A stretch of 37,159 nucleotides of DNA from Dehalococcoidia bacterium (lineage in GTDB: Bacteria > Chloroflexota > Dehalococcoidia > DSTF01 > JACRBR01), in contig JAJTXQ010000043.1 of NCBI GenBank assembly GCA_021462855.1, forward strand, positions 1 through 37,159. Direction: 5' to 3'. The translations under genes and the position numbers were made by a program. Below are positions 9,507 through 37,159 of this stretch, in pieces. Within the stretch, counting starts at the first letter, position 1. Each line of letters begins with the position of its first letter. The notes below the pieces were generated by a model. It was given only the letters and a program-made list of their open reading frames with translations, did no database searches and was not told where the DNA came from.

Positions 9507-9582
9507 GCCCCCGTAGCTCAGTGGACAGAGCACCGGACTTCTAATCCGATGGTCGCAGGTTCGAATCCTGCCGGGGGTGCCA
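9507..9582 (+). tRNA. tRNA-Arg (anticodon TCT)
   Basis: The 76-base sequence folds as a full cloverleaf. Acceptor GCCCCCG pairs with CGGGGGT (first pair G-T); D-arm TAGCTCAGT...GAGC; anticodon arm CCGGA-CTTCTAA-TCCGA style with TCT; T-arm GCAGG-TTCGAAT-CCTGC; discriminator G and an encoded CCA end. The integrase lies just downstream, so this gene is the likely integration site. Confidence 0.97.
9555..9582 (+). other. presumed attachment site (tRNA 3' end)
   Basis: Tyrosine integrases of tRNA-borne islands usually recombine within the T-arm to 3' end of the tRNA. The composition change begins right after CCA and the integrase starts 163 bases on. No second copy of this segment is seen up to the window end, so the other attachment site should lie further right. 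The exact crossover core is inferred. Confidence 0.5.
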
Positions 9583-9644
9583 CGCCCTTCAATCCGAATC
9601 TGAAAACGAGGAGAGAACGCCCGCCAGACAAGCGCGGCGGCCAT

Positions 9645-9745: not shown

Positions 9746-10795
9746 ATGGTGAAACGAACGCGCTGGACGGACATGAACAAGCAGAACATTCCTTTCAGAC
9801 AGCTCAGAGAGGCCTACGGCGTCTTCAACAAGACGACGGGGAAGTCGCCCGCGACCGTGCGCTTCTATGACGAACGTCTCGAGGGCTTCGAGCGCTACAT
9901 CGGCCCAGACGCCACGCTCGCGGACGTGAACGTGCACGACGTGCGCGCGTTCATCGCCCATCTACAGGGGCGCACAGACCGCAACCCGAACAACCGGTAC
10001 GGCAAGCAGCCCGTCGGCCCCCTCTCGTCGTCTTACATCCAGGGCTTCGCGCGGACGCTCAGGGCGTTCGCTACGTGGCTCTTCGAGGACGGCTACACAA
10101 ACGACAACGTCCTGAAGGCGATCAGGCCGCCCAAGATTCAGCAGAAGGTCAAGGAGGTGCTCACAGACGACGAGGTGCAGCGTATCCTCGCGCTGTTCAA
10201 CCAGGACGAGCCGTATGGCGCCCGCGACTTCGCCATGCTCTGGACGCTCCTGGACTGCGGGCTTCGGGCGTCCGAGATCTGCAACCTCAAGATTGACGAT
10301 GCCCACCTGGAACAGGGTTACCTGAAGGTCCTCGGCAAGGGCAACAAGGAACGGCTAGTGCCCATCGGTCAACGGTGCCAAGAGGCGCTGATGAAGTGGC
10401 GTGACCGGCACCGCGCCTCGTTTGTCGTCGTCGATGTCCCCAACATGTTCTTGAACAGCAACGGGGATGCCATGACGGTGAACGCGCTCAAGCTCGTCCT
10501 CGCGCGCGCTGGTGCGCGCGCCGGCGTCCCCCGTGTTCACCTGCATCTTCTCCGGCATACGTTCGCCACGAACTATCTGGTGCGCGAGGTTGGTGACCCG
10601 CTCCGGCTTCAACAGATCCTCGGGCACACGAGCCTCGAAATGGTGCGGAGGTACGTCTCACAGGCGAATGTCCAGAAGAGCCTGCTCGAACGGCGAAGCT
10701 CTCCGATGGACCTGATAGCCGCAGGGAATGTGCTGCACCCGAAGGCCCGTCGCCTGCAGGCGCGACGGCCTGGGCGATTGCGCGTGGTGAAGTAG
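9746..10795 (+). CDS. tyrosine recombinase/integrase
   Basis: The 349-residue protein has an N-terminal SAM-like core-binding domain (about residues 17-125) and a catalytic domain with the full active site: Arg174 (GLRASE), Lys198 (LGKGNKERLVP), His267 and Arg270 (HLLRH), His294 (LGHTS) and Tyr303. It should catalyse integration and excision of the element at the tRNA-Arg gene. The ATG is 11 bases after AAGGAGG, a slightly long spacing; an overlapping frame starting at 9736 has no coding character. The C-terminal 25 residues are basic. Confidence 0.95.
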   Translation: MVKRTRWTDMNKQNIPFRQLREAYGVFNKTTGKSPATVRFYDERLEGFERYIGPDATLADVNVHDVRAFIAHLQGRTDRNPNNRYGKQPVGPLSSSYIQGFARTLRAFATWLFEDGYTNDNVLKAIRPPKIQQKVKEVLTDDEVQRILALFNQDEPYGARDFAMLWTLLDCGLRASEICNLKIDDAHLEQGYLKVLGKGNKERLVPIGQRCQEALMKWRDRHRASFVVVDVPNMFLNSNGDAMTVNALKLVLARAGARAGVPRVHLHLLRHTFATNYLVREVGDPLRLQQILGHTSLEMVRRYVSQANVQKSLLERRSSPMDLIAAGNVLHPKARRLQARRPGRLRVVK

Positions 10796-12037: not shown

Positions 12038-12485
12038 GCAGTTGGCTTTTAGTGTTGGCCAGAGCTGCGGGCTTTCCAAAGCCAACACCTGCGTCGCAGG
12101 CAAGGCGGGGGCCGCGCGCCAACGCGCGCCAGCGCCGGATAGCGGCAGACAAGGGGGAAGAGGCGGCCAGCGAGTTCAAATGTGCGGCACCAGAGCGCCG
12201 TTCGTCTCGTTGGCCGGGTTCGTCGTCGGGCTCGCGGTGCCTCCCTACGGGCTACCCCCCACGGACCCGACCCCGTCCGGTTTCGCTCGTTGCCGTGGGC
12301 AACGTCGCGAACGCGGCGGGCGACTCCCTCTGGCGAGGGGTGCCCTTGCTAACCGGCCGGGGTCGGCTCACGCCGACGACGAACTTGCGCGGCGGGAATT
12401 CCCCCTTGAACCCCCTTCCCTTGCGCAACGCGGCAGGCAGCCGCCGCCAAAAGACGCGCCGAGAGCGCGTGCCGCCGGAGGCGTC
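12038..12485. other. GC-rich hairpin-laden non-coding block (oriT or structured RNA candidate)
   Basis: About 450 bases hold no credible gene, although several frames are open by composition. The counted line at 12121 is 67% GC. Perfect short hairpins recur: GCGCG-CCAA-CGCGC near 12115, CGTTGCC-GTG-GGCAACG at 12288-12304, and GTCGGC-TCAC-GCCGAC near 12362-12377. It sits directly upstream of a replication-relaxation gene and a coupling ATPase, a plausible place for a transfer origin. Confidence 0.4.
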
Positions 12486-13400
12486 ATGAGCGGCGCCAGA
12501 CTGCCACGTCATCGGAGAGCCGAAACTCCGCCACCTATGCTGCTCACGGAGCGCGACATAGAGATCCTGCGGACGGTGGCAGAGTTTCGGTACATGACGC
12601 GCGAACAGGTAGAGAAGCTCTTCTTTTCTCCGTCAACCACGTCGTACTGCAAGCGGCGGCTCTCATTGCTGTATCACAACGGATATCTCGAACGGCGCTT
12701 TCTACCTCTTCGCCAGGCCTTCGGGGCAGCTCGCGCGTATTACGTCCTAGACCAGAAGGGAGCGGAAGTTGTCTGCGAAACTACTGGACGGACTCGACAG
12801 GAACTCGATTGGAGACCGCGTGACGGACGTCGCGAACCCCTCTATATGGAGCACACGCTCGCCATCAACGATGTCCGCGCCATAGCCGCCCTCACGGCGC
12901 AAAGACGCGGAATCGATCTCGCATGGACGGACGAGCGAGAGCTCAAGCGTCGAGTACGTGAGCATCGAGTGCCCGATCCCACCGCACCGGATAGGAAGAT
13001 CACCATCGTTCCAGACGGCTACTTTGTCATCCAACACCGCTGGGCGTTTGCCTTGGAACTGGATCGAGCCACGGTTGAGGAGCAGCCGTTCAAGCGCAAG
13101 GTGCGCGGCTACGGAGAGTGGAAGCGCAGCGGCGCGTACGCGCGTTCGCTCGGGACACACAGCCTGCGTGTCCTCTTTGTCGTTGCAGATGAACGCAGGG
13201 ATCCACGTCGGCTCGAACGCATCCGCGACTGGACCGTCGCCGCCGGAGGCGGCACGATGTTTTGGTTCGCGCGCCAGGCAGACTTGACCGGCTCGGACAT
13301 GTTCGCCAATGCTTCTTGGGCAGTCGCGCGGGCCGAAGGTCGCCGGCGCCTGTTTGGAGGCGAGATTGACGAACTGGGAGATCCTCGGCGAAACGCCTGA
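12486..13400 (+). CDS. replication-relaxation family protein
   Basis: The 304-residue protein opens with a winged helix (LLTERDIEILRTVAEFRYMTREQVEKLFF), then LSLLYHNGYLERRF, followed by a nuclease-like alpha/beta region with the run VPDGYFVIQHRWAFALELDRAT and FKRKVRGYGEWKRSGAY, typical of the Replic_Relax family on actinobacterial and Chloroflexota mobile elements. Its exact activity is not established; plasmid replication or DNA relaxation is the family's proposed role. The start is ATG with GGAGG five bases upstream; the open frame continues upstream without coding character. It overlaps the following ATPase gene. Confidence 0.8.
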   Translation: MSGARLPRHRRAETPPPMLLTERDIEILRTVAEFRYMTREQVEKLFFSPSTTSYCKRRLSLLYHNGYLERRFLPLRQAFGAARAYYVLDQKGAEVVCETTGRTRQELDWRPRDGRREPLYMEHTLAINDVRAIAALTAQRRGIDLAWTDERELKRRVREHRVPDPTAPDRKITIVPDGYFVIQHRWAFALELDRATVEEQPFKRKVRGYGEWKRSGAYARSLGTHSLRVLFVVADERRDPRRLERIRDWTVAAGGGTMFWFARQADLTGSDMFANASWAVARAEGRRRLFGGEIDELGDPRRNA

Positions 13401-14964
13401 CGGCGAATTCACAATCTCGCCAGAAGTCCGTCGCCAGCACCTCTACGTTCTCGGCCGCACTGGCACCGGCAAGTCAACTATGCTCGCCCGCTTGGCGCTT
13501 TCTGATATCGCTCGCGGTGATGGACTCTTGGTTCTCGACCCTCACGGTGATCTCGCGGAAGAGATCGTCGCTCACTGTCCCTCTGAACACCTTGAACGCG
13601 TCTTCTACCTAGACCCGTCGGATCGGCTCTATCCCGTTCCGCTGAACCTCTTTGAGTGCAGGCGTGAAGAGGATGCAGATACGGCCTGCGCCCAAGTCAT
13701 CGGCGTCTTCAAGCAGCTCTATGGAACGATGTGGGGGCCGCTCCTTGAAGACTTGCTGAGGAGCCTCACCCTCGCCATGCTCGATCATCAGCGTCTTGGG
13801 GATCTTTCGATCCCGGACGAGGCACACAATGCCACGCTCAAGGACGCCCACGACTTTCTCCTGAGCAAATCGATGCGGAACCGTTACTACAGTGCAGGGA
13901 TCATTGGGAACGACATGGTGCGCCGTTTCTGGGTCGACTTCTACGACAAGATCGGCATCACGAAGAAGAACGAGGAGGTCAACTGGCGCCAGGTCCAATA
14001 CGCGTCTTCGACGCTGAACAAGCTCCGCCGGTTCCTGCTCAATCCGCTGGTCTTCGACATTTTCTGCAACCCGAACCGTGTGAGCCCACTAGACTTCCGC
14101 GAAATCATCGACAAGCGGAAGGTTCTCATCGTCAATTTGTCGAAGGGCAAGCTCGGAGAGGAGAACACTGCGCTCATCGGCTCCGTGATTCTGAGTCAGT
14201 TGGCGGTCGCGGCACTATCGCGCGCCAACATGGCTCGGGACGCACGCAGGGCGGCGACGTTCCATGTCATTGCTGACGAGTTTCAGGCATTCGCGACGCC
14301 CAGCTTCCAGGTCCTGCTTGCCGAGGCGCGAAAATACGGAATCACCGTTACCATCGCTCATCAATACAGAACACAGTTGGAAAACGAAGCGCGCGGCGCG
14401 ACCCTCAATTGCGGTTCCATGATCTGTTTCCGCGTTGTTGGAACCGACGCCGATGATCTCGCGCTCGAATTCGACTCCACGCCAGACGAGTTCGGTTCGC
14501 GGTACGAGCGCGTAATGATCGCAAGGCCGGCGAGCGGCCTCTCACAAGAGGCTCGATTCGCGAGCAACGAGCGCACCGCCTATCGACGCGTCCCCGATTC
14601 GCTTTCGTTCGCTGAGACGGGTCGCGCGATCGCGAACGCTCTGACTCAGCTTCCGAACTACACAGCCATGACTCGCCTCGCGGATGGCACCAGCGCCGCA
14701 GCAAACATGAACGCCCTTCCGGCCCTCGATAACGACGAACTCAACGACAGGCTTCAAGTCCTTCGTGATCGGCGACGTGCGGTCGCCATACCGAAGGACG
14801 AGCGTCGCTCGGTTGTCGAGGCACACTGGGTGAGTCAAACCCGTGAACAAGAGGCACGAGAGGTCGTTTACAACGCGGAACTCCAGGATCAGGGAGTCGA
14901 AGACAGTGGCGAAGACGACAGCCACGCTGGTAACGACCTCCCCCAATCGAATGATGACGCATGA
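13366..14964 (+). CDS. TraG/TraD-like conjugative coupling ATPase
   Basis: I choose a TTG start at 13366, with GGAGG five bases upstream inside the end of the previous gene; the ATG at 13309 has no such signal. The resulting 532-residue protein begins with a strand region and Walker A GRTGTGKST (30-38), LLVLDPHGDLAEEI, a Walker B VIADEF with Asp304-Glu305, then LLAEARKYGITVTIAHQYR, all typical of VirD4/TraG/HerA-type DNA-pumping ATPases. No N-terminal membrane helices are present, so it resembles soluble coupling proteins. It would move element DNA in transfer or partition, working with the upstream relaxation protein. Confidence 0.85.
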   Translation: MTNWEILGETPDGEFTISPEVRRQHLYVLGRTGTGKSTMLARLALSDIARGDGLLVLDPHGDLAEEIVAHCPSEHLERVFYLDPSDRLYPVPLNLFECRREEDADTACAQVIGVFKQLYGTMWGPLLEDLLRSLTLAMLDHQRLGDLSIPDEAHNATLKDAHDFLLSKSMRNRYYSAGIIGNDMVRRFWVDFYDKIGITKKNEEVNWRQVQYASSTLNKLRRFLLNPLVFDIFCNPNRVSPLDFREIIDKRKVLIVNLSKGKLGEENTALIGSVILSQLAVAALSRANMARDARRAATFHVIADEFQAFATPSFQVLLAEARKYGITVTIAHQYRTQLENEARGATLNCGSMICFRVVGTDADDLALEFDSTPDEFGSRYERVMIARPASGLSQEARFASNERTAYRRVPDSLSFAETGRAIANALTQLPNYTAMTRLADGTSAAANMNALPALDNDELNDRLQVLRDRRRAVAIPKDERRSVVEAHWVSQTREQEAREVVYNAELQDQGVEDSGEDDSHAGNDLPQSNDDA

Positions 14965-16131: not shown

Positions 16132-19100
16132 ATGAAAACTCTTGGCCAGGGCTGTAAGCCGCGCGCTTCGGTATTTGAGCAGCGCGGCAAGGACACTGTC
16201 TACAACATCGACGATCTGAACCAAATCGCCCCCGCCGAGTTCTTCGCGGAGAACTGGGTGACGGATGGAATGAAGGTGCTGCTTTCGGAGGCGTTCAAAC
16301 GCCTCGAAGGCAAGGGAGGCAGCGCCGCCGGAACGTTCCTCCTCAGCCAGTCGATGGGAGGTGGAAAGACCCACAACCTCGTTGCACTGGGACTGCTTGC
16401 CAAGCACCCGAACATCCGCACCAACGTCATGTCCGGCTTCTACGAGCCAGGCGAGCTAGGCGCAGTCCGGGTCGTCACGTTCAGTGGCCGCAAGAACACC
16501 GAGTTCGGCATTTGGGGTGAGGTGGCCGAACAGCTCGGGAAGCAGAAGGTTTTCGAGAAGCTCTACACACCTCTCCAGGCACCCGACGACGGCGACTGGG
16601 TAGAACTGCTCTCTGGCGAACCGCTTCTCATCATGCTCGACGAGCTGCCACCGTACTTCAAAGCCGCGGCCGGCGTGGCGGTCGGCGCAACCCACCTCGA
16701 CGAGCTCACCACCCGTGCCCTTGCGAACCTCGTGGTCGCCGTAAATGGCGGCAGTCTCCCCAACGTCTGCGTGGTGATGACTGACCTTAAAGGCACCGCC
16801 TACCAAAGCGACGCCCTGAGCGACCTGCAGAAAGAGATCAACCGGGCTGGCGGTCACGTCCAGATCGAGCCTGTGAAGATGACGTCGAACGAGCTCTATC
16901 ACATCCTCCGCACGCGGTTGTTCGAGAGCGTGCCAGAGTCGGGCGACATCGAGGAAGTTGCTGAGGGGTACCGTAAGGCACTCGACGAAGCCCGCCTGAT
17001 GGACGTCACCGCTGCTTCCCCCGATCAGTTGAAGTCCGACATCGTCAACGCCTATCCGTTCCATCCGGCTATCCGCGACCTCTTCGCAAGATTCAAGGAG
17101 AACGAAGGCTACCAACAAACGCGCGCGCTCATCCGGATCATGCGGATCAACGTGGCGATGCTGTGGGAGTCAGGCGAAGCCAACTACAAGTACTTGGTCG
17201 GGGCGCACGATTTCGATCTCCACGACGCAGAGATGCTTAGCGAGATCGCGATGATCAACAACCAGCTGTCAAACGCCATCGCGCACGACATTGCCTCACA
17301 GGGAGGGTCATCTGTTGCCGAACAGATTGACGCGCAGGCGGGCGGGACGGATGCACAAGATGTCGCGCGTCTTATCTTCCTCTCATCTCTGTCTCTTGCT
17401 GTTGAGCCCGTGCACGGTCTCAATCGATCTGAGATCGGTGCAGACCTAGCGGAACCAGGACGTGATCTCGGGCGACTGCGGCACGCCGTGGACGCGCTGC
17501 AGGAAGGCGCCACGGGAGCTTGGTATTTGCACCCGACGTTGGATGCAAAGCTCGTGTTCCGCAACGTGGAGAATCTTCGAGCCAAGCTCGATTCCTACAC
17601 GCGCGGCCAGCTCAAGGAGCAACGCGAAGGAGAACTGCGTGCGCGCCTGAACGACATGTTCAAGACCGTGCGCAAAGACTGTTATCAGGATCTAGCGGCA
17701 TTGCCCGCGCTGGATCAGGTCCAACTGACATCCGACCGGGTCACGCTTGTGGTGTTCCAACCGAGGCCCCAGGGCCTCCCAGGCGAGGTGCGTGAGTTTT
17801 GGGAGCATCAGCAATACAAGAACCGCGTGCTGTTCCTCAGCGGCGCGTCAGGCGCCTATGAGACCGTCCTACAACGTGCGGCACAGCTAAGCGCCTCACG
17901 CAAGATTCTGGACGAATTGAAGAACCAGAACCGCAGGCAAGACGACCCGCAACTCATCGAAGCGGAGCAGCTCCGGTCGAAGTCGGAGTCGCAGTTCTAT
18001 CAGTCGTGCCGGGAGACCTTCCAGACGATCTGGTACCCATCGAAGAACGGCCTAACGTCGTTCGACCTCGATCCGAAGTACGTGGCCAACGAATACAAGG
18101 GCGAGGAGCAGGTCATCCAGGCCCTACAGGAAGTCGCGAAGTTCCGCGAAGACACCGGCCCGGACACGACGTTCAAGACCACGCTGGAGAACAAGCTTTG
18201 GCCGCCGAATCAGAAGAGTGCGGCCTGGTCGGGCATTAAGCAGCGCGCGGCACAGGACTCGTCGTGGCTCTTGCATCATCCGCGAGCGCTTGATCTACTC
18301 AAACAGGAACTCGTGCGGCGCGACATCTGGCGGGAGGCCGGCGACTACGTCGAGAAGGGCCCCTTCGACAAGCCCGCGACGTCCGTCCAGGTGTTGCCGT
18401 TGAGCTACGATCCGACAACCGGCGAGGCGACCATTCGCGTGAAACCGCAGCACGGTGACGTCATTCACATGAGCGAGGACGGCGACGCGACGACCGCGTC
18501 TCCGCGTCTCGACCTTGGTTCCGACCTTAAGACGAAGGCGGTCAGGCTCTCGTTCCTCGCGGTCGATAGCACCGGCGAGCACGATGTTGGCGATCCCTTT
18601 CCGTGGGTCAACCAAATTGTCTTGAAGTACAAATTCTTCCAGGACGGTGACGAGCGCAGATGTGAACTTCGCGCGTACCCGTCGGGCCAGATCCGATACA
18701 CGACGGACGGATCAAACCCGACTGTGAACGGCCAAACGTACGCTGAACCGTTCGTTGTTCCGGGAGACGCGCGGTTTGTCCTAGCCGTGGCCGAGGAAAA
18801 GGAGGTCCGGTCGGACCAGCTTCGTGCGGACGTGCCCGCCAAGATTGGTGGCCCTGAAGGCGTGGACGTCGATCCCGCCAAATCGGCAATTTGGAAGCGG
18901 AAGCAACAGCAAGACTCCACCGGTGAGGTGTACGCTTTCCTCGAAGCGATTGGGAAGTACAACGCCCAGATCGGCGGCACGAAGATCACGGTTTCACGCG
19001 AACAACGCTGGGTCGAATTCCGGGCCGCCGATGAGGTTCTGCTTTCAGCAGCGAGGATCGTTGAGGAGTCCACTCGGCTTCAAGGACTTATACCCGAAGG

Positions 19101-19209
19101 CAACCTCGATCTGCGTGTTGAGCGCCTGAGACTCGAAAGTGGCAAGGATCTCGAAGACCTGGTGCGAGACTTGAAGACCGAACTGAAGCCCGGAGAGGTA
19201 ATCCAGTAG
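16132..19209 (+). CDS. DUF499-family AAA-type ATPase (defence operon gene 1)
   Basis: The 1025-residue protein has the DUF499 opening: KPRASVFEQRGKDTVYNIDDLN, AEFFAENWVTDGMK, then Walker A SMGGGKTH (Lys79) and Walker B LLIMLDELPPYF with Asp170-Glu171. A long helical part follows, with a charged coiled segment around residues 480-510. Near residues 850-890 there is a beta-sandwich signature (IRYTTDGSNPTVNGQTY) of the chitobiase C-terminal type. Proteins of this family sit beside DUF3780, DUF1156 and helicase genes and are thought to be the NTP-driven core of a defence system, acting in the cytoplasm. The ATG follows GGGGGAG. No transmembrane segments are seen. Confidence 0.9.
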   Translation: MKTLGQGCKPRASVFEQRGKDTVYNIDDLNQIAPAEFFAENWVTDGMKVLLSEAFKRLEGKGGSAAGTFLLSQSMGGGKTHNLVALGLLAKHPNIRTNVMSGFYEPGELGAVRVVTFSGRKNTEFGIWGEVAEQLGKQKVFEKLYTPLQAPDDGDWVELLSGEPLLIMLDELPPYFKAAAGVAVGATHLDELTTRALANLVVAVNGGSLPNVCVVMTDLKGTAYQSDALSDLQKEINRAGGHVQIEPVKMTSNELYHILRTRLFESVPESGDIEEVAEGYRKALDEARLMDVTAASPDQLKSDIVNAYPFHPAIRDLFARFKENEGYQQTRALIRIMRINVAMLWESGEANYKYLVGAHDFDLHDAEMLSEIAMINNQLSNAIAHDIASQGGSSVAEQIDAQAGGTDAQDVARLIFLSSLSLAVEPVHGLNRSEIGADLAEPGRDLGRLRHAVDALQEGATGAWYLHPTLDAKLVFRNVENLRAKLDSYTRGQLKEQREGELRARLNDMFKTVRKDCYQDLAALPALDQVQLTSDRVTLVVFQPRPQGLPGEVREFWEHQQYKNRVLFLSGASGAYETVLQRAAQLSASRKILDELKNQNRRQDDPQLIEAEQLRSKSESQFYQSCRETFQTIWYPSKNGLTSFDLDPKYVANEYKGEEQVIQALQEVAKFREDTGPDTTFKTTLENKLWPPNQKSAAWSGIKQRAAQDSSWLLHHPRALDLLKQELVRRDIWREAGDYVEKGPFDKPATSVQVLPLSYDPTTGEATIRVKPQHGDVIHMSEDGDATTASPRLDLGSDLKTKAVRLSFLAVDSTGEHDVGDPFPWVNQIVLKYKFFQDGDERRCELRAYPSGQIRYTTDGSNPTVNGQTYAEPFVVPGDARFVLAVAEEKEVRSDQLRADVPAKIGGPEGVDVDPAKSAIWKRKQQQDSTGEVYAFLEAIGKYNAQIGGTKITVSREQRWVEFRAADEVLLSAARIVEESTRLQGLIPEGNLDLRVERLRLESGKDLEDLVRDLKTELKPGEVIQ

Positions 19210-19910
19210 TGATGCCCGCGCGGAAGCACCCGACGCTAGGCTTTGGATTCGATCCCGTTGAGTCTCCGGCGCACTTTGCCGTCGTGATTCCGCGGAATGA
19301 CACCGATCACGTCGTCATCGAAGAGCGATACTCCTCGGAGAAGGTCGCGGGTGAGTCTCAACGCGCACCAACACCGAAGGCTTACCTCGACCTGTATCGC
19401 TGGTCGCGCATCGCGGATGTAACGCGCGCTCAGTTCAACAAGCGCCTTCGCGACGCCGGCAGTGAAACCGCGCAATGGAAAGCGGGTGGGGAGACTCCGT
19501 TGGCACCCTACTTCGGCAAGGAACTGACGCTCCTTGCCTGGGCCATCGAGGACGCCGACCCCACGCTCATTCCGAATATGGTTGCCAACTGGCTCGGCCT
19601 CGCGCCCGAGGAGCGGTGGTGGTTGTACACCACCATCAATGCGACGAGCGGTCATCCGGAGCATGGACGCAGCCGCGGCTGGAGGAAGGCAATCAAAATC
19701 GCTTTCGCCGAGAACCCTGCAGGCGCGCCCGCCGATTCTCTACCCGAGATTGGGTCTCAGCCAATACGGCTTCAGCTACCCGTAGACGTCGAACGTCGGA
19801 CGCCGTCTGAACTTGACGAGCCACCCGCAGAACTTCGCAAACCACGCACACGCAAGACTCGTGAAGTCCCTCACGCGCAGCTTGAGTTTTTACCCGAGGA
19901 CAAGAAGTGA
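19209..19910 (+). CDS. DUF3780 protein (defence operon gene 2)
   Basis: The 233-residue protein has the family's conserved blocks: GFGFDPVESPAHFAVVIPR at the start, a middle FNKRLRDAG with LAPYFGKELTLLAWAIEDADP, then PNMVANWLGLAPEERWWLYTT and SRGWRKAIKIAF. The tail (about residues 200-233) is charged and disordered. GTG at 19209 overlaps the previous TAG by one base; ATG at 19212 is an equal choice, and GGAGAGG lies nine to twelve bases ahead. Its biochemical role is unknown, but the family is found only in this type of cluster as far as I know. It is likely an adaptor of the ATPase or methylase. Confidence 0.9.
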   Translation: MMPARKHPTLGFGFDPVESPAHFAVVIPRNDTDHVVIEERYSSEKVAGESQRAPTPKAYLDLYRWSRIADVTRAQFNKRLRDAGSETAQWKAGGETPLAPYFGKELTLLAWAIEDADPTLIPNMVANWLGLAPEERWWLYTTINATSGHPEHGRSRGWRKAIKIAFAENPAGAPADSLPEIGSQPIRLQLPVDVERRTPSELDEPPAELRKPRTRKTREVPHAQLEFLPEDKK

Positions 19911-22882
19911 CAACACAAGAAGTTGTCCCCACCGCCGTCCCTCAAGCTTTATCCAGCGCCCCGACCTTCATCGAGACGCAGTTCCCCGTTAGCAAACTCT
20001 CAAAGGAGAGCTACAAGGAGCGCAAAGCGGGATCTGGGCAGACCCTCACGGGTTTGGGGAAATGGTGGGGACGCAAACCCCTGGTGGTTGTGAGAGCGGC
20101 AATACTCGGAATGCTTCTTCCGACTTCTCAGGATCCTCAACGAGACCGCGAGGTGTTCCTTTCGCTCATGACGATGGACGATGAAGGCTTGGAGAGTCGG
20201 CTCCGTGGAGCCATTTCTCCATCCGTCACTTTTCGGCACTGCACGCCGTCCGAAAGAGGCGAGTACTTTGACCTTGACGGAAAGACGGCGACCTGGAAGA
20301 AGGCTGTCGCCAAAGCCGATCGGGTTCACCTGCAGGCGCTCGCCTTTCGGCGCATGTCGTATGACGAGAAGCTGAAGTACTGCAAGAGGCCGGAAGAGGT
20401 TACCGGGCCGTCCAAGACAGCCTGGTCCCGGATCAATGCGCATCTAGGCACTAGCTGTGAAAGCATCCCACAGTTGATCCATGAACTCGGTCGAAGGCGA
20501 TTCGGCGAAATCCCGAAGGTGTCCGATCCATTCTGCGGCGGTGGGAGTATCCCGTTCGAGGCGGCCAGGATGGGCTGTGTGGCTTATGGAAGTGACCTTA
20601 ACCCGACGGCTGCCTTACTGACGTATGGCGCTCTCAACATTGTTGGTGGCGGTGCCGAGGTCGCCTCGCACTTGAAGGATGTCAGGAACGAGGTGCGCGA
20701 CGCTGTTCAAGCGAAGATCGATGCTTGGGGTATCGAGCGCAATGAAGACGGCTGGGTGGCTGAGGCTTATCTCTATTGCACGGAGGTCTTGGATCCTTCG
20801 ACTGGCTGGACCGTGCCCCTCGCAACGTCGTGGGTCGCCGCAGAGCGCCCGAGGGTCTTTGTTCGACTCATCCCGAATTCTGCCACGCGACGCTTTGCCT
20901 TCGAGGTTGTACAAGACGCAACGAGCGAAGAGCTTGAGGTGGCCCGCCTCGAAGGAACTTGGAGAAACGGCATCGCGTCCCCAGTGGATTCGCATGGAAA
21001 TTGGATCCCGCGAGAGCTGCGCGCCGTCACGCCGCTTAGTGAGGCGCGAGGCAAAGGAGGTGCTCAACGATGGGAACCTCGTCAGCTTGACTCACGTGAT
21101 GGCGTGTTTCGAGATCGGATCTATTGCATCAGGTGGCTCGATCCGGCAACGGGCGAACGACATTATCGAGCTCCTACCGAAGAGGACGAGGAACGCGAAA
21201 GGCAGGTTCTAGACCTGCTCGAAGCGAGACTCGACGAGTGGCAGTCGAAAGGGTTTGTACCAAGCGCTTCCATAGAACCCGGCCAGGCGAACATGCGGCC
21301 AACGAATGCTCGCGGTTGGACGTCCTGGATGCATTACTTCAATCCGCGCCAGCTCCTTCTGAACGGCGCTTTTGCCGAAACGGCTGCTCGATTCACGGGC
21401 CTTGACGCAGTCGCGCTTGTTCTCCTGATAAACCGCCTTGCTGACTGGAACTCACGACTTTGCATCTGGTTGACCCCGAAGAGCGGCGGTCTCGGCGGCG
21501 GAAACAACACCTTCTATGGACCGAGCATCAATACACCCGGCGCTGGCTACGTAGCGCGTACCATGCTCTCTCTGGAGTCTGCCTTCGATCTCGGAACTAG
21601 TGGCATTGACCTCGCTGGGCACGGCACTGTCGATCTTCGCGATGCGCGCACCGTGGTCGAACCCGCACATCTCTGGCTCACCGATCCCGGATACGGTGAC
21701 ACGGTGCCCTACGCGGAATTCTCTGAGTTCTTCTTGGCTTGGTCTCAGTCTCGCATCAAGGAGCTCTTTCCCGATTGGTACACAGACTCTAAGCGGGCAC
21801 TTTCGGTGGAAGTTGCAGGAGACCAGTTCAGGCGAGCGATGGTCGAGTGCTACCGGAACTTCGCTCGCCTTATGCCCGACGAAGGTCTCCAGCTCGTCAT
21901 GTTCACTCATCAAGATGCGGAGGTCTGGTCCGATCTTGCACTCATCCTTTGGGCCTCGGGGTTGCGGGTAACAGCCGCGTGGACGGTCGCGACCGAGACG
22001 AGCACTGGGAGCGTCAAGGGCGACAACTTCGTCCAGGGCACAGTCCTTCTCGTCTTACGTAAGCGGCTCACTGAGAAACAAGGCGATATGGCCGACATCT
22101 ACCCGGATCTCCAGGAAGAGGTTCAGCGGCAGATGCAGTCGATGCTCGACCTTGATCCGAAGGACGACCCCAATTTTAGCGACTCGGATTATCAGCTAGC
22201 GGCATATGCAGCTGCGCTCCGTGTCCTGACGGAGTACAGCTCCATCGACGAAATCGATGTCGAGCGCGAATTATTTCGGGAGCGATCCAAGCGAGAGCGA
22301 TCGCCGCTTACGCGACTCATTGAACGCGCAGTCAAGATTGCGTCCGACTATCTCGTTCCGGATGGCCTAGAAAGGGCTGTGTGGAAGAAGCTATCCGCGG
22401 AAGAGCGCCTCTACATGAAAGGGCTCGAGATCGAGTCGCACGGAGAGTACCGAGATGGCGTCTACCAGGAATTTGCGCGCGGCTTTGGAGTTGGTGAATA
22501 TCGTTGGATGCTTGGTAGTACGACAGCGAACCGGACAAGACTGAAGACTCCATCTGAATTCAAAGGCCGGGACTTAGGAGGAAAAGGTTTTGCGGGCTCA
22601 CTGGTGCGACAGCTTCTGTACGCCATCTGGATCACAGCAACGCACTCCGAACTGGATCCTCGACCAGCGCGTGCGTATCTGAAGCAAGAGCTTCCTGAAT
22701 ACTGGGATCAGCGCTCCACGCTAATGGAGCTATTACGCTACGTGGCCGAAAAACCACGGACCGCAGAACCGTCGCGGGTCGATGATCAAGGTGCAGGCGA
22801 GCTAGCGCCTATGGCGCATTGGGCGAAGGACTGCGAGGCGGCCCGCTTGCTGGCGGGTAGCATCGAAAATGACTCTGTATGA
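19907..22882 (+). CDS. DUF1156 adenine-specific DNA methyltransferase (defence operon gene 3)
   Basis: The 991-residue protein starts at GTG overlapping the preceding TGA by four bases (GTGA). The N-terminal block FIETQFPVSKLSKESYKERK and GKWWGRKPLVVVRAAILG is the DUF1156 signature. The AdoMet site is DPFCGGGSIPFEAA (from residue 207). The catalytic loop reads DPGY (593-596) rather than the usual DPPY, followed by YAEFSEFFLAW. The family methylates adenine in DNA, here presumably marking host DNA for self-recognition while the other operon products attack unmarked DNA. No separate target-recognition subunit is seen, so specificity must lie in this chain. Confidence 0.92.
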   Translation: MTTQEVVPTAVPQALSSAPTFIETQFPVSKLSKESYKERKAGSGQTLTGLGKWWGRKPLVVVRAAILGMLLPTSQDPQRDREVFLSLMTMDDEGLESRLRGAISPSVTFRHCTPSERGEYFDLDGKTATWKKAVAKADRVHLQALAFRRMSYDEKLKYCKRPEEVTGPSKTAWSRINAHLGTSCESIPQLIHELGRRRFGEIPKVSDPFCGGGSIPFEAARMGCVAYGSDLNPTAALLTYGALNIVGGGAEVASHLKDVRNEVRDAVQAKIDAWGIERNEDGWVAEAYLYCTEVLDPSTGWTVPLATSWVAAERPRVFVRLIPNSATRRFAFEVVQDATSEELEVARLEGTWRNGIASPVDSHGNWIPRELRAVTPLSEARGKGGAQRWEPRQLDSRDGVFRDRIYCIRWLDPATGERHYRAPTEEDEERERQVLDLLEARLDEWQSKGFVPSASIEPGQANMRPTNARGWTSWMHYFNPRQLLLNGAFAETAARFTGLDAVALVLLINRLADWNSRLCIWLTPKSGGLGGGNNTFYGPSINTPGAGYVARTMLSLESAFDLGTSGIDLAGHGTVDLRDARTVVEPAHLWLTDPGYGDTVPYAEFSEFFLAWSQSRIKELFPDWYTDSKRALSVEVAGDQFRRAMVECYRNFARLMPDEGLQLVMFTHQDAEVWSDLALILWASGLRVTAAWTVATETSTGSVKGDNFVQGTVLLVLRKRLTEKQGDMADIYPDLQEEVQRQMQSMLDLDPKDDPNFSDSDYQLAAYAAALRVLTEYSSIDEIDVERELFRERSKRERSPLTRLIERAVKIASDYLVPDGLERAVWKKLSAEERLYMKGLEIESHGEYRDGVYQEFARGFGVGEYRWMLGSTTANRTRLKTPSEFKGRDLGGKGFAGSLVRQLLYAIWITATHSELDPRPARAYLKQELPEYWDQRSTLMELLRYVAEKPRTAEPSRVDDQGAGELAPMAHWAKDCEAARLLAGSIENDSV

Positions 22883-25587
22883 TCGGGCGCTACTCATCGC
22901 GGGTCAGTCGTGAAGAGCTAGCGAACGTCCTCACTGGCGCGCTGAAGGGCGCCACGAAGTACGACAGAATCGCCGGGTACTTTCGCTCCTCAATCCTTGA
23001 AGTCGCGGGCGAAGCGCTCGAACAGATGGCGCCTGGCGCGGTCGCACGCGTCATCTGCAACTCCGAACTGAACGCGCTGGATGTGAGCACGGCACGCGCC
23101 GCGAAGCTGGCCATGTTTCGCGAGTGGAGCGATTCGCTGCCAAAGGACTTTCATCCCGCACTACGAGCGCGACTCGCACGCCTCTATCACCTGTTCAGCG
23201 ACGGTCGGCTTCAGGTTCGCGTGCTTCCGAACGAGACGTTCGGGCTAGTGCACGGGAAGGCCGGCGTCATCACCCGCGCCGACGGATCACGCATGTCCTT
23301 CATGGGGAGTGTGAATGAGTCGAGGTCAGGCTGGGCCATCAACTACGAGCTAGTCTGGACCGACGACAGCGACGAGGCAATCTCCTGGGTACAGGAGGAA
23401 TTCGAGGCTCTCTGGAACTCAAAGGACGCCTTCGAACTCGCGGACGCGGTGATCACGGACGTCGAACGTCTGACGCGTCGAGAGGTCATCCCATCCATTG
23501 AGAAGTGGACGAAGGAAGCTGATGCCGATCCCGCATCGCCTGTCGTAGAGCTTCCGGTCTATCGGCGCGAGAACGGTTTGTGGGCTCACCAGAAATACTT
23601 TGTGCGCAGAGCCTTTGATGAACATCAGCGTCAGGGTGCTCGCTTCGTGCTTGCTGACCAGGTCGGTCTCGGAAAGACAGTTCAGCTCGCACTCGCCGCG
23701 AAACTGATGGCGCTGTGGGGCAACAAGCCAGTGCTCGTGCTCGTTCCGAAATCGCTATTGCAACAGTGGCAGAGCGAGCTGTGGGACCTTCTTTCCTTAC
23801 CCTCAGCCGTCTGGAACGGGTGGCAGTGGATCGATGAGAATGGCGTCACCTATCCAAATCGTGGCATTGAGGAAATCCGCAAGTGCCCACGTCGAGTCGG
23901 AATCGTGTCGAGCGGACTCATTACCCAGGCCGGACGGGGCGCCGAACTACTCCTCGGAGTTGACTACGAGTGCGTGATTCTCGACGAGGCTCACCGTGCT
24001 CGCCGTAAGAATCTCGGTCAGGCGAAGAAGAACGAAAAAGCAGATCCCAACAACCTCTTGCGCTTCATGTTCGATATTGCGCCGAAAGCGCGCAGCGTCC
24101 TGCTTGCGACGGCGACGCCGGTGCAGCTTGATCCGATCGAGGCGTTCGATCTTCTGGACGTGCTGAATCGTGGCAAGGACACGGTGTTGGGTACGCCATA
24201 CAGCCCATGGCAGACACGAGCTCGCGATGGGCTTGGTCTTGTATTAGGCCGCACGCAAGCGCCCACCGACGACAGCGAAGCGTGGGAGTGGATGCGAGAT
24301 CCACTTCCGCAGGCTTCCGAGGACAGGGAGTTCCAGCTGCTCCGGGGAGAACTCGGCATCAGCGATGACGAGAACTACGCGGCGCCGGAGGCTATCCAGA
24401 CACTACGCGCGCCCGACCGCGACCGACTACGTGAACTCGCCTCGGACTTCTTCGCTGAGCACAACCCATACATCAGACACATCGTGCGCCGAACGCGCGA
24501 GTACTTAGAAACGGCGATCGACCCGCAGACGAACGAGCCGTACTTGAAACCGGTCGTCGTGAGGCTGTTCGGTGAGACCGACGACGAAGCGGTTACCCTC
24601 CCGGCCGCACTTGAAGACGCCTATGGGGACGCAGAGGAGTTCTGCCAGATCCTTGCGAAACGTCCCAACATGAACGCCGCGTTCCTTCGAAACGTCTTGT
24701 TGCGGCGCGTTGGCAGCACGATCTTCGCGGGCCAGCGTACGGCCACCAAGATGTTGCGTGGCGATGTCGATGATGAGGAAGAGGAGGACACTTCTCCACC
24801 TTCCGCCCTCGCTCCGCTAAGCGATGAAGAGCGGACTGTTCTCGAGCGCTTTCTGGCACGACTTGAGCCGCTCGTCGAGGCGGATCCAAAACTCCGCGAG
24901 GTCCTGCGTATTCTGCTCGAAGGCGCGAACGGCACGCAGCGTTGGCTGGATGAAGGATGCATCATCTTTTCTCAGTACTACGACTCGGCCTACTGGGTCG
25001 CCGAACGCCTGTCGCGCCGCCTTTCGGATTGGACGGTTGGTCTGTACGCCGGAACGTCAAAATCGGGCGTCTTTCGCGAAGGCCAATTCACGCGGCTTGA
25101 TCGTGAGGCGATCAAGCAAGGTGTGCGCAACGACGAGCTGAAGCTCGTTGTCGGCACCGACGCAGCGTCAGAGGGCTTGAACCTCCAGCGACTCGGTACG
25201 CTCATCAACCTCGACCTACCGTGGAACCCCACGCGGCTCGAACAGCGCAAAGGGCGGATCCAGCGAATCGGCCAAGTCCGGGACGAAGTGTTCGTCTACA
25301 ACCTCCGTTATCGCGGGTCGGTTGAGGATCGCGTACACCAGATGCTCTCGCATCGCCTTGAATCGATCCGCGACCTGTTCGGACAACTTCCCGACACGCT
25401 CGAAGACGTGTGGGTAGCCGTCGCAGAACACGACGTGGAGAAGGCGAGGCAAGTCATCGACGAAGTACCTGAAGCGCACCCGTTCTCGGTGAAGTACGAC
25501 CGAATCGAGCCGGTCGATTGGGAGTCGTGCGCTCAAGTGCTGGACACGCAGCCCCAGTTGGAACTGCTTCGCACCGGCTGGCGATGA
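22879..25587 (+). CDS. PLD-SNF2 family helicase/nuclease (defence operon gene 4)
   Basis: The 902-residue protein starts at ATG inside ATGA overlap with the methylase stop. The first 190 residues form a phospholipase-D-like domain with HGK at 125-127 and GSVNES at about 140; the usual aspartate of HKD is replaced by threonine. The helicase core follows: Walker A DQVGLGKT (260-267), DEAH (369-372), LLATATP, then GTDAASEGLNLQ and RKGRIQRIGQ (from about 789), as in SNF2/DrmD-type enzymes. It should translocate on invading DNA, with the PLD domain as the only visible nuclease candidate of the operon. An acidic insert (DVDDEEEED) lies near residue 630. Confidence 0.9.
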   Translation: MIGRYSSRVSREELANVLTGALKGATKYDRIAGYFRSSILEVAGEALEQMAPGAVARVICNSELNALDVSTARAAKLAMFREWSDSLPKDFHPALRARLARLYHLFSDGRLQVRVLPNETFGLVHGKAGVITRADGSRMSFMGSVNESRSGWAINYELVWTDDSDEAISWVQEEFEALWNSKDAFELADAVITDVERLTRREVIPSIEKWTKEADADPASPVVELPVYRRENGLWAHQKYFVRRAFDEHQRQGARFVLADQVGLGKTVQLALAAKLMALWGNKPVLVLVPKSLLQQWQSELWDLLSLPSAVWNGWQWIDENGVTYPNRGIEEIRKCPRRVGIVSSGLITQAGRGAELLLGVDYECVILDEAHRARRKNLGQAKKNEKADPNNLLRFMFDIAPKARSVLLATATPVQLDPIEAFDLLDVLNRGKDTVLGTPYSPWQTRARDGLGLVLGRTQAPTDDSEAWEWMRDPLPQASEDREFQLLRGELGISDDENYAAPEAIQTLRAPDRDRLRELASDFFAEHNPYIRHIVRRTREYLETAIDPQTNEPYLKPVVVRLFGETDDEAVTLPAALEDAYGDAEEFCQILAKRPNMNAAFLRNVLLRRVGSTIFAGQRTATKMLRGDVDDEEEEDTSPPSALAPLSDEERTVLERFLARLEPLVEADPKLREVLRILLEGANGTQRWLDEGCIIFSQYYDSAYWVAERLSRRLSDWTVGLYAGTSKSGVFREGQFTRLDREAIKQGVRNDELKLVVGTDAASEGLNLQRLGTLINLDLPWNPTRLEQRKGRIQRIGQVRDEVFVYNLRYRGSVEDRVHQMLSHRLESIRDLFGQLPDTLEDVWVAVAEHDVEKARQVIDEVPEAHPFSVKYDRIEPVDWESCAQVLDTQPQLELLRTGWR

Positions 25588-25633: not shown

Positions 25634-26860
25634 TCAGGTGCGCTTTAGCCTCGCCACCTTTGCAATGATCGAGCGCCCACCAGCGCGCGGGGTTTGATCC
25701 CATAGTCGAGGAATGTTGTCGCGGACTAGGTTAATGTAAACGTAGTCGGGGACATCTTCGTCCCCTCTCTTCGCGGCGCTAGCAGCCGCCAGAAACTGGT
25801 CGATGCCCCAATGTACTAGCGTTCGTTTCCAAAGTCCTTCGATCGCGTCTCGCGTCTGGTAAGGCCGGAACGCGTCTGCTATCACAGCTGGTCCGACAAA
25901 GTGCATTACGTCAGCAAAGTCCTCGGCGGGATCGCCGATCTCGGCATTGCCCCAACCTACGACACCGGTGGGGTGCAAAGCGTCGTCAAATAGCACGTGC
26001 CGGGAGAACGCCCCGTGCCTAACCGTTGGCCGAAAGTCGTAGATATCATCTTCTTCCAGCGCCAGGGTAAAGAAGTCTTCAAACGTCTTTTCGAATGCCT
26101 CGCCTTTGAAGGAGCCTTCAACTCTCGGAGTCATGCGATAGCGCTCATTGACAAACTCGTACACGTCTTCCGGCGTGCTTTGCTCCATTCCGAGTCGAGT
26201 TGCGTCGTCGAGTCTCGTAGCGTGTAGCTCGCTGAGGATTCCTCCGAGTGCGTGAACCATTTGCAGCGAGCCCGGATTGCGCTTCAGAAATGCACGCTTT
26301 TGGCGGTGACCAGGGATCGTACGGTAGCCGATGAATTGCTCGTACCACTCCGTCTCCGCCTGACGGTTGTCGTACTCGACCTTCGGTACTCGAACGTGAA
26401 GGCGCTCATTCAGTTGGGGCAGCAAGGCCAACTCGCGCCCCGTTTCTTCAGGCGTCCGCTCTACCATCGGAAAGCGGAATAGAATACCACTCACTTCGAG
26501 GAAGGAATGACTCTCGCCGTACCACAGCGTCATTGGGTTCTTCGCGTCACGGCCCTCGCCTTTGAGAGCCGGGTACGCTTCGATGACGGTCTTCCACCGT
26601 GCCTTCACGTCACCAAGGAACGCGTTGACTCCAGCTTCCAAAGTCTTGCGATCGACTTCGCCGGTTGCGACCGCATTCTCGATGTCTTGGCGACTAACTT
26701 GGCCGGTGACACGGCCTATCTCAGCTGCGGCATCCAGCAATCCATCGTCCACTGAGCCTTCCACAGTTTGACTCTTCCGGTCGTTCTGACTGATTTCGCT
26801 CCGAGTCGGCCCATCGTCTCGTGGCGAGGTTTCGCTAGCTTCGCCTAGTTCCGGCTCCAT
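25634..26860 (-). CDS. aminoglycoside-phosphotransferase-fold pseudokinase
   Basis: The 408-residue protein has a roughly 85-residue helical N-terminal extension followed by an APH-type kinase fold: GILFRFPMVER, a glutamate in GRELALLPQLNERL, LGGILSELHATRL, then the catalytic loop and GDPAEDFADV. The catalytic loop reads RHGAFSRHVLF, so the usual HGD aspartate is Ala284, and the metal-binding IDW is VGW (Gly302). Phosphotransfer is therefore unlikely; a binding or scaffold role is more plausible. The start is ATG at 26860 with GGAGGTG just upstream, and the TTG at 26884 is less likely. It converges on the defence operon 46 bases away, but membership in that system is only inferred. Confidence 0.8.
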   Translation of the reverse strand: MEPELGEASETSPRDDGPTRSEISQNDRKSQTVEGSVDDGLLDAAAEIGRVTGQVSRQDIENAVATGEVDRKTLEAGVNAFLGDVKARWKTVIEAYPALKGEGRDAKNPMTLWYGESHSFLEVSGILFRFPMVERTPEETGRELALLPQLNERLHVRVPKVEYDNRQAETEWYEQFIGYRTIPGHRQKRAFLKRNPGSLQMVHALGGILSELHATRLDDATRLGMEQSTPEDVYEFVNERYRMTPRVEGSFKGEAFEKTFEDFFTLALEEDDIYDFRPTVRHGAFSRHVLFDDALHPTGVVGWGNAEIGDPAEDFADVMHFVGPAVIADAFRPYQTRDAIEGLWKRTLVHWGIDQFLAAASAAKRGDEDVPDYVYINLVRDNIPRLWDQTPRAGGRSIIAKVARLKRT

Positions 26861-26884
26861 CTTCACCTCCGACTCAACTATCAA

Positions 26885-32848: not shown

Positions 32849-33760
32849 TTGGATTCGATGGAGTGGGCTGCCGACGGTAAGATCCGCACGGGGAGCCTTC
32901 TCTTGACCACCGAAACGCCTCCACCACCCTCTGTGTCAGCCTCGTTTACCTTCGAGCTACGCGACGAAGAGGGCGTCGGGGCGCTCTACTGTGCACTAGA
33001 TCCAGCGCTCGCGGAGCAGGCCGCCATGTGTGTGGCGAAGGGCATCGCGCAACGCCGGATCGGTGTTAACGCGCGGCTACATAGTGTTTGGCTGGAACAG
33101 CTTGATGCTGATGACGGGACGAAGCCCAAAGCCACCGATGCGACTGTCCTCGTGGCCGGGTTGTTACAAAATGTGGGCACTCCGGCCGAACCGGCCGACG
33201 TCAACCATCTCCACGGACTCGTCGCAGAAGAAATCTGGTTTCAATTGGTCTCGCAACGCGATGATCTTGGCATGGGCCTGCCTATTCACGTAGAGGGTCA
33301 TGATTGGTCAGCCACCGATCCTGGTGGTGATGGCCTTACCGTTTACGCGGTTAGCGCTACGTTCGCATTCCGGCTCTGGGAGTCGAAATTCCACGACAAC
33401 GCTGCCCCTGTCCGCGACACGGTGCACGGTGCCTGTCGACAAATGAGAGATCGGGCTACGAGCTACCTTGCGCGATTCTCACTCGTCGCTCAGCGGCTTA
33501 CTGACAATCCTCCGCTCGCCGACTTCTACAGTCGTCTTCCGGAAATGTGGGTCGATCGCACCGAAGCGGTCGGTGTAGGTGTGGTGGTCGCGGCTGGGGC
33601 AGATCCTGGCGCACCTTCCTTCTCCGGCATGCCCTCCTACTTCGGGCTAGTCGTGGAACGCCATCAAGGGCAGCTCAATTTACTCGGCGACTGCGCCGGA
33701 TTCTGTACGCGAGTTCAACAGATCTTGTGGAAGGGGTGCGGACTTTGGAACGCGCCATAG
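32849..33760 (+). CDS. hamA: DUF1837/HamA-like nuclease (Hachiman subunit A)
   Basis: The 303-residue protein has the DUF1837 layout: a beta-rich start, a central NHLHGLVAEEIWFQLVSQRDD, then the PD-(D/E)xK-type set GGDG (Asp161) and WESK (Glu178, Lys180). HamA is the nuclease half of the Hachiman anti-phage system and is held inactive by the helicase until activated by DNA. Start choice is unsure: TTG at 32849, ATG at 32858, or TTG at 32905, which has GGGGAG nine bases ahead. The downstream gene overlaps its end by 16 bases. The symbol is by fold and partner, not by close similarity I could measure. Confidence 0.82.
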   Translation: MDSMEWAADGKIRTGSLLLTTETPPPPSVSASFTFELRDEEGVGALYCALDPALAEQAAMCVAKGIAQRRIGVNARLHSVWLEQLDADDGTKPKATDATVLVAGLLQNVGTPAEPADVNHLHGLVAEEIWFQLVSQRDDLGMGLPIHVEGHDWSATDPGGDGLTVYAVSATFAFRLWESKFHDNAAPVRDTVHGACRQMRDRATSYLARFSLVAQRLTDNPPLADFYSRLPEMWVDRTEAVGVGVVVAAGADPGAPSFSGMPSYFGLVVERHQGQLNLLGDCAGFCTRVQQILWKGCGLWNAP

Positions 33761-36700: not shown

Positions 36701-37159
36701 ATTTCGGCGTCGCGTCGCGCGACGCACTCGATCTCATGGGCGGCGGCGTTCGGTCTCGCCGCCTGGCAAGCAAGATCGCCGAGGTCTGGCGAGAATCTTC
36801 AACGGATGATGACGATCTGATGCTTCGCGAATGGCTAACGCGCCAGGGAATCGCCGACTGGCGCGAGACGTTGGAAGCGTCACCGACTGAACTCCTCGAC
36901 CTTCTCTCGTTCGTTCGTGCTCCCGAAGCAAGACTCGTCGCCGACGTGCTTTCAGGTGAACCATACGCGATTCCCTTCGTCTCACAGGTAGCCGTTGACG
37001 TGGGTAGTGATGCGACGATAGCCCTAGACACCGGTTCCATGCCACCCATGCGGCTTGCCGTCATGGTCGACGTGAGCTTACCCCGCTTTCCCGGACACCT
37101 AGACTGTTGGCTGAGCGCCACAGAGAAGGGAGTCCCGGATGGCCGCGAGGTATCCACGC
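33745..37159 (+). CDS. hamB: Ski2-like SF2 helicase, HamB-like (Hachiman subunit B), partial
   Basis: One frame is open without a stop from inside the end of hamA to the window edge (1138 codons). TTG at 33745 with GGAAGGGG nine bases earlier is the likely start; GTG at 33736 is an alternative. After a helical N-terminal region of about 290 residues come FPTSAGKS (302-309), IDEAH (402-406), LSAALGN (about 438), TTTLTEGVNLP (649-659) and GRAGRAGR (689-696), a complete Ski2/Hel308-type motor. The rest includes long helical and beta segments. In Hachiman the helicase scans DNA and releases HamA on unusual or damaged DNA. The C-terminus and stop lie outside the window. Confidence 0.88.
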   Translation, partial: MERAIDLEKLTTALGTHAGLPNPVQLQRLLTDVEIGLFTQQANIGDGMLDCGWYLQSAATARAELRQRDLRGTRLAHQVSAHIFDLALQAASLSHTERMRYTFAAQVGYLGGELTPNAAALARRVQVARPPFEWTTPADASLEAGILLLALDRRSLYPLLQTRRLQLDGFYQSMGDAAPSVYEAVDGVIRGIWELTNYLTYGGPERLDAARQRFLTAMGTAAAAADLDSRWVAAHLVDLSDALGAASVWSVIPPDLAGAAKAMTMGDPPVLVLWPPQLNFLSSQNNTASPLSTTTKRLVLSFPTSAGKSLLAQLLITTHLVTADSGDVCVVAPTHSLCRELASALQPRLRTLGIQLHDDGPLGGFDTRPANARVVVMTPEKLSARLRGDPTTVLDEFSLFVIDEAHLVGDGERGWRLEETISLLHHLTRGTHHRLLVLSAALGNQVHITNWIDDGSGVVSKHEDWRGPRRLNAVYTTEPQWEAVTLVEGQGQRRPRRKWPLNGVIRLKTSSDATGIVSGQFTEPVGELVQKSPKKGGWERDGDLSTRQRALVVPLIQHVAAMGPVLVVEATRGEAQKLAEEIASRFDEPAAVPFSLQETARARLGEQHLLPRVLAKGVAFHHAALPVDIQAEIEDAVRRGEIRCLVATTTLTEGVNLPFKTVIISSRGYQSAEGFVELVDAPKLLNAIGRAGRAGRETEGWLILVEHSAFSSSMFEDLERSGSDLNIKSTLVSQAALEALAQAEASAHLAEDAILANADAIASGFISYIWFVADAVEEVRGSITSEAVADAVRDTLAWQQLDEHSRAQVLRVGEVAYQSFQTQPVERRRRWSRSGASLPSARILEEISEGVISQVESQQGFRSLMQTLELLTTDGRLSALLGLAENKNRGFKARRNAPRDQLLDVDVANLLRDWVSGTAIQVLADTHLTDVVDQDYRYEQMAEFSASVFEHHLPWMFGILIRWINGRLEASGGDPQLNDDLPAAVHFGVASRDALDLMGGGVRSRRLASKIAEVWRESSTDDDDLMLREWLTRQGIADWRETLEASPTELLDLLSFVRAPEARLVADVLSGEPYAIPFVSQVAVDVGSDATIALDTGSMPPMRLAVMVDVSLPRFPGHLDCWLSATEKGVPDGREVST

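Follow-up and report, generated by a model that had tools for sequence, protein, structure and literature searches.

The closest described relatives of the operon studied here belong to the BREX-related (BR) systems, of which the Type-2 set was published by Rakesh and Krishnan in 2026 for 1120 taxa (PMC12839542). In that description the DUF499 protein carries a C-terminal RRM and, in about half of the Type-2 members, FnIII sandwiches (PMC12839542). We found no experimental study of a Type-2 BR system in the accessible literature. Type-1 BR, also called Hma, combines a DUF499 ATPase, a DUF1156-type N6-methylase and an SNF2 helicase, but is without DUF3780 and has a PD-(D/E)XK nuclease at the C-terminus of the helicase. 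BREX type 3 likewise joins a BrxC-like ATPase to an adenine methylase and an SNF2 helicase, and DISARM unites a methylase, an SNF2 helicase and a PLD protein, DrmC, which is encoded separately.

We analysed a stretch of 37,159 nucleotides from the genome of a Dehalococcoidia bacterium (contig JAJTXQ010000043.1), referred to below as the window. The initial annotation had described a tightly coupled operon of four large genes, and we confirmed four co-directional open reading frames at 16132-25587, overlapping by 1, 4 and 4 bases. The junctions read, in gene order, GTAGTGATG, AAGTGACA and GTATGATC. The genes and the segments discussed below are:

16132-19209, + strand: DUF499 AAA+ ATPase, BrxC-like, 1025 aa (Pfam, PADLOC, NCBIfam)
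18376-18831, + strand: two FnIII-like beta-sandwiches of DUF499, residues about 749-900, with a Fn3_assoc match at 846-887
18886-19170, + strand: C-terminal segment of the DUF499 gene, beyond the FnIII-like sandwiches
19209-19910, + strand: DUF3780 protein, 233 aa from GTG, with a folded core (about residues 1-172) and a disordered tail
19878-19892, + strand: QLEFL near the DUF3780 C-terminus, a weak clamp-motif variant
19907-22882, + strand: DUF1156 N6-adenine DNA methyltransferase, 991 aa (Pfam, PADLOC, NCBIfam)
21683-21694, + strand: methyltransferase motif IV, DPGY replacing DPPY
22879-25587, + strand: PLD-type nuclease fused to an SNF2 helicase, 902 aa (Pfam, PADLOC, NCBIfam)

The DUF3780 gene has an alternative start, ATG at 19212 instead of GTG at 19209, which would turn the 1-base overlap with DUF499 into a 2-base gap.

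Pfam identified DUF499 (PF04465, 84 bits), DUF3780 (PF12635, 145 bits) and DUF1156 (PF06634, 79 bits), as well as PLDc_2 and SNF2-rel/Helicase_C in the fourth protein; all Pfam matches in the operon exceed their cut-offs, except for a weak DEAD match. All four proteins match dedicated PADLOC models (PDLC02192/02191/02189/02193), with 680 bits for DUF499 against PDLC02192 and 800 bits for the helicase against its own PLD_Helicase model, and all four match NCBIfam models named "anti-phage" (NF042962/61/63/64). Most of these dedicated matches span nearly the whole protein. The methylase (NF042963, 1172 bits, cut-off 1000) and the helicase (NF042964, 1224 bits, cut-off 1100) surpass the NCBIfam equivalog cut-offs, and DUF499 (NF042962, 819 bits, cut-off 1200) and DUF3780 (NF042961, 137 bits, cut-off 200) fall below them because of sequence divergence. 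The earlier description of an adenine methylase, two NTP-driven proteins and a PLD domain in a defence-type operon on a mobile element was borne out by these domain matches and by the motifs described below.

All four genes of the published Type-2 BR system are present in the operon, and each of its distinguishing features was found: a BrxC-like DUF499 with FnIII and RRM modules, a DUF1156 methylase, an N-terminal HKD-type nuclease and a stand-alone DUF3780. As in the published system, the nuclease occupies the place on the helicase where a Tudor domain would sit; the operon differs from that system in methylase motif IV, which reads DPGY. It shares with Type-1 BR the ATPase, methylase and helicase, but matches to HmaC, HmaB and HmaA are far weaker (130, 82 and 113 bits, respectively). 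The same three activities are common to BREX type 3, but the DUF6079 of BREX differs from the DUF499 found here, and there was no PADLOC match to PglZ, BrxA, BrxB or BrxL among the proteins scanned around the operon. On the evidence of sequence, we conclude that the operon is a Type-2 BR system, and thus of a known kind, with a predicted function in phage defence.

The DUF499 protein has an atypical Walker A motif, QSMGGGKT (QSMGGGKTH; MGGGKT at 16354-16371), and LIMLDE as Walker B. Its predicted structure resembles BrxC, with 9zll_C giving the top TM-score in the list (probability 1.00, TM-score by target 0.50). It includes two FnIII sandwiches and a C-terminal RRM, in line with Type-2. In the fourth protein, PLDc_2 lies at residues 21-179, N-terminal to the SNF2 core. 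The PLD motifs are HGK (23251-23259; HGKAG) and GSVNE, and the helicase motifs are DQVGLGKT, DEAH and QRKGR. HGK and GSxNE are invariant, and the Asp of HxKx4D lies away from its usual place.

Operons with the same gene order were found at 28-61% identity in Chloroflexi, Methanoperedens, Vicinamibacteria, one proteobacterium, Leptospiraceae, Coprothermobacter and Tissierella, a conservation of order that is therefore far beyond chance. DUF499 lies upstream of DUF3780 in 68 of the 77 loci whose sequence extends far enough to judge, and the methylase directly downstream of DUF3780 in 59/68. The idea raised in the initial annotation that the four genes always co-occur is thus nearly true, the exceptions being mostly stand-alone DUF3780 genes on viral contigs. 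It had also asked whether homologous operons are widespread outside mobile or defence settings, which was not the case in seven annotated plasmid neighbourhoods, where integrases and numerous transposases, a Tn7-like element, a TIR protein and a Pycsar neighbour were found. On two Deinococcus plasmids (L026 and L058) a Phd/VapC toxin-antitoxin pair directly follows DUF3780; L026 also has a truncated methylase with transposases behind it. A similar stretch occurs in 32 of 5426 complete E. coli genomes, the listed rows being annotated as an anti-phage DUF1156 gene, and the four genes stand together in the one E. coli genome inspected. Searching phage records with the helicase returned only general SNF2 similarity, with at most 28% query coverage among the matches listed, and a scan of viral contigs with it returned no relative.

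The operon lies on an integrative element, as previously noted, for which an integrase beside a tRNA-Arg gene, lower GC content and a 48-bp repeat provide support:

9507-9582, + strand: tRNA-Arg(TCT), the integration site
9536-9583: attL, a 48-bp perfect repeat of positions 69598-69645 (minus strand) of contig C76, corresponding to the 3' half of the tRNA
9746-10795, + strand: tyrosine integrase (Phage_integrase, Xer-like; Pfam, NCBIfam)
12042-13400, + strand: replication-relaxation protein (Replic_Relax) of the element (Pfam)
13309-14964, + strand: TraD/VirD4-like DNA-transfer ATPase of the element (Pfam, NCBIfam)

GC content drops at the tRNA-Arg gene from 0.69-0.74 to 0.58-0.61. Contig C76 is from the same assembly, and its copy of the repeat lies 468 bases from the contig end, without a tRNA gene. 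We place the right end of the element there from the repeat, such that it probably bridges the break from contig C38 to C76, running from attL in the window to attR on C76.

In the AlphaFold model of the DUF3780 protein, pLDDT is about 90 for most of the core and falls to about 50 after residue 172 or so, as expected for a flexible tether. The PCNA-binding PIP box reads QxxhxxF, and the tail of the Methanoperedens DUF3780 protein, QGKLWQF, fits it. Across the family, tails vary greatly in length and sequence, with QLSLF, QLDLF, QTELF and TLDLF as frequent ends; QxxLF is the published consensus for binding to the bacterial beta sliding clamp (PMC12926913). We sampled DUF3780 proteins from archaeal and bacterial genomes, plasmids, other classes and viral contigs, and compared motif counts in the non-redundant tails (44 bacterial, 7 archaeal) with those expected from 10,000 rounds of shuffling. 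QxxLF is present in 10/44 bacterial tails (expected 0.29; maximum of 4 in 10,000 shuffles) and [LM]xLF in 15/44 (expected 0.43), and permuted control motifs occur in none of the 44. The PIP box, Qxx[LIM]xx[FYW], is present in six of the seven archaeal tails (expected 0.07; shuffle maximum 2), none of which has QxxLF. The two patterns overlap partly, and five of the 44 bacterial tails also fit the PIP pattern. The scoring was set after the first tails had been seen, the consensus itself being published, and a held-out set agreed: with scoring fixed beforehand, 8/17 tails passed (expected 0.40), and 0/17 did so when reversed. The C-terminal ends of DUF499 and of the methylase are not enriched in clamp motifs, and a C-terminal QLELL in 3/15 PLD/SNF2 proteins, all Chloroflexota-type members, only equals the shuffle maximum.

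We regard clamp binding as a strong prediction for the DUF3780 family, based on these tail sequences. Since the QLEFL of the window is a weak variant, the claim rests on the family, and clamp binding by this particular motif is uncertain. It scores 4 against a threshold of 6 and fails the relaxed pattern as well, as do 11 other operonic tails, including those of L010, L030 and L012 (which has no tail). At the same place, L008 has QLTLL and L015 has QLSLF. The nearest relative, L005 (G207:C127), has a DUF499 that is 82% identical over the available part; its DUF3780 gene, at about 1480-1893, is broken by an internal deletion or frameshift, and an AQLQF tail is found in another frame. Three gammaproteobacterial tails (L029, L057 and L060) contain two clamp-like motifs each, for example QTELF and TLGLF, a pairing that could let one tail contact the two subunits of the beta-clamp dimer. 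PMC12839542, which names DUF3780, does not mention clamps; an earlier description might exist elsewhere, in subscription papers or preprints outside our search.

Phylogenetic analysis of the DUF3780 core places archaea in three positions in the tree. Eight archaeal proteins form one clade, all with a PIP box, and the PIP box is carried by only two independent archaeal acquisitions. The protein of locus L039 ends in QQDIHSFF and is sister to the bacterial L031, which has EMPLF (support 99/93); nearby are the bacterial L089 (TLSLF), L091 (NLSLF) and L071 (QEDLF). We assign L039 to an archaeal host because genes for an archaeal MCM and for an S-adenosylmethionine synthase (methionine adenosyltransferase) of archaeal type lie on its 79-kb contig. 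Nested among bacterial copies, L039 has switched to a PIP box. If the tail binds the clamp, it should change from beta-clamp type to PCNA type along with the host; the switch in L039 is a natural experiment of this sort and is difficult to account for in other ways. The exception is L051 (G1006:C123): its 6.6-kb contig belongs to an archaeal bin, and the protein has a Desulfosarcina sister and carries the bacterial-like SYSLF; this bacterial-type tail may reflect contamination or recent transfer.

At eight loci on viral contigs, DUF3780 is found without the rest of the operon. Five of these copies were scanned with Pfam and matched DUF3780 at 78-191 bits. The following tail-less copies are candidate decoys against Type-2 BR systems:

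L090, 2989-3444: stand-alone tail-less DUF3780 core, IMG/VR contig
L094, 2935-3411: stand-alone tail-less DUF3780 core, IMG/VR contig, beside a DnaD-like replication protein
L096, 2995-3471: stand-alone tail-less DUF3780 core, IMG/VR contig, beside an exonuclease and an integrase
L097, 931-1407: stand-alone tail-less DUF3780 core, IMG/VR contig
L098, 2860-3333: stand-alone tail-less DUF3780 core, IMG/VR contig, beside Sak4 and an endolysin

The clamp motif is present in 0/8 stand-alone copies and 26/51 operonic copies (Fisher p 0.007), or 0/8 and 39/51 with the relaxed motif (p 6e-5), a difference that is partly one of tail absence, as in six of the eight little or nothing follows the folded core. 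We speculate that the stand-alone phage cores are decoys that take the place of DUF3780 in the complex. If true, such tail-less decoys would be a new anti-defence strategy.

Our best explanation for the window, to which we give a probability of roughly 0.68, is a Type-2 BR defence operon of restriction-modification-like character, carried as cargo of an integrative element, in which DUF3780 acts as a sliding-clamp adaptor. On balance we also favour the wider proposal that Type-2 BR is coupled to the replication fork by this adaptor, with a tail fitted to the clamp of the host domain, and that phages counter it with tail-less decoys. The DUF1156 enzyme would methylate adenine at a site in host DNA, and DUF499, with its FnIII, RRM and winged-helix modules, would serve to assemble a surveillance complex and to gate it. 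Movement along DNA would come from the SNF2 motor, and the single HGK-type PLD site would cut unmodified invading DNA. The folded core of DUF3780 may dock on the BR complex, with the methylase as its probable neighbour, as its gene is directly upstream of the methylase gene in nearly all loci. Its flexible tail would bind the host clamp, DnaN in bacteria and PCNA in archaea, and so bring the complex to the newly copied, hemimethylated DNA that trails replication forks, where the methylase could mark nascent host DNA before attack by the nuclease-helicase. The same tether could also put the effector onto replicating phage DNA. We think that maintenance marking is the main purpose and fork-coupled attack on phages the second, although the data are compatible with both. 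PCNA-tethered maintenance methylases and clamp-bound repair enzymes, such as DNMT1, MutS/MutL and Y-family polymerases, are recruited to the clamp by a short QxxLF or PIP motif. The proposed recruitment of DUF3780 is of the same kind, but these proteins are non-homologous to it, and DUF3780 would act in a defence system as an adaptor encoded as a subunit of its own. The tether provides a testable function for a protein previously without an assigned one. If true, it links a restriction-like system to replication and bears on how nascent DNA is located, and the host spared, by BREX-like systems.

The main competitor to the clamp adaptor is the proposal of Rakesh and Krishnan that DUF3780 is a reader of modified bases (PMC12839542), taking over from the Tudor domain that Type-2 BR helicases have lost; the tail motif would then serve another partner or be incidental. 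In favour of this role, RAMA or ASCH/PUA reader domains are found fused to some members of the DUF3780 family (PMC12839542). A fold search of the DUF3780 model against the PDB, however, gave no usable match (best Foldseek E 0.27; best VIA Z 3.2) and so lends no structural support to a reader core, and reading of bases predicts neither host-matched clamp motifs nor the switch in L039. We consider a reader in place of a tether unlikely, although the two can both hold, with the core as reader and the tail as tether. A different doubt concerns the methylase, whose activity is not certain, as motif IV is non-canonical: DPGY is found in the window, in the Chloroflexi MAG L008 and in Thermomicrobium roseum (L024), whereas 12 other relatives have DPPY. 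The enzyme of this branch might be inactive, with self discriminated in another way, such as by sensing through the clamp or DUF499 alone. However, three homologues retain DPGY despite their divergence (59% identity between the methylases of the window and L008), motif I (DPFCGGGS) is intact, and motif IV still has its D, first P and Y. In M.TaqI the second proline of motif IV, the one altered here, is not a direct catalytic contact. Because L008 and L024 share it, DPGY has the look of a variant typical of the lineage and not of decay, and loss of activity seems quite improbable.

Two further readings concern the operon as a whole. The initial annotation had called it DISARM-like, which would make DUF499 and DUF3780 stand-ins for DrmA and DrmB. 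A methylase, an SNF2 helicase and a PLD domain are common to both, and the helicase matches the PADLOC models of DrmD (124 bits) and DrmA (86 bits), but over the SNF2 core only and with scores similar to those of PbeA, HmaA and BrxH, so that this likeness is general to SNF2 proteins. The PLD domain is fused to the helicase, unlike the separate DrmC; the PADLOC scans of window proteins gave no DrmB match; and the methylase and ATPase are related to Hma/BREX-type proteins. The DISARM label therefore does not hold: BREX is the closest system, with a BrxC-like DUF499 and a methylase and helicase resembling those of BREX type 3, Type-2 BREX-related is the published name, and we regard a DISARM variant as extremely improbable. 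Alternatively, the operon may serve the integrative element itself, in maintenance or in the exclusion of other elements, rather than phage defence. Its position as cargo and the relatives on plasmids would fit such a role, but relatives also reside in chromosomes as well as plasmids of many phyla, next to Pycsar, Upx and TIR genes, and the matching NCBIfam models are named anti-phage. Exclusion of other elements is, moreover, defence in a broad sense, and we judge a purely element-serving role very unlikely.

The initial annotation had placed a Hachiman pair next to the operon. A HamB-like helicase is present downstream:

33547-37158, + strand, open at the contig end: HamB-like DEAD-box helicase (PADLOC PDC-M23B 206 bits, HamB 200 bits)

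Its best PADLOC model is PDC-M23B, and HamA was not found: the preceding open reading frame (32849-33760) matches no HamA/DUF1837 model. Together the two genes may represent a PDC-M23-type or a divergent Hachiman system. Between them and the operon, a gene for an APH-fold phosphotransferase (25634-26884, minus strand) converges on the operon end.
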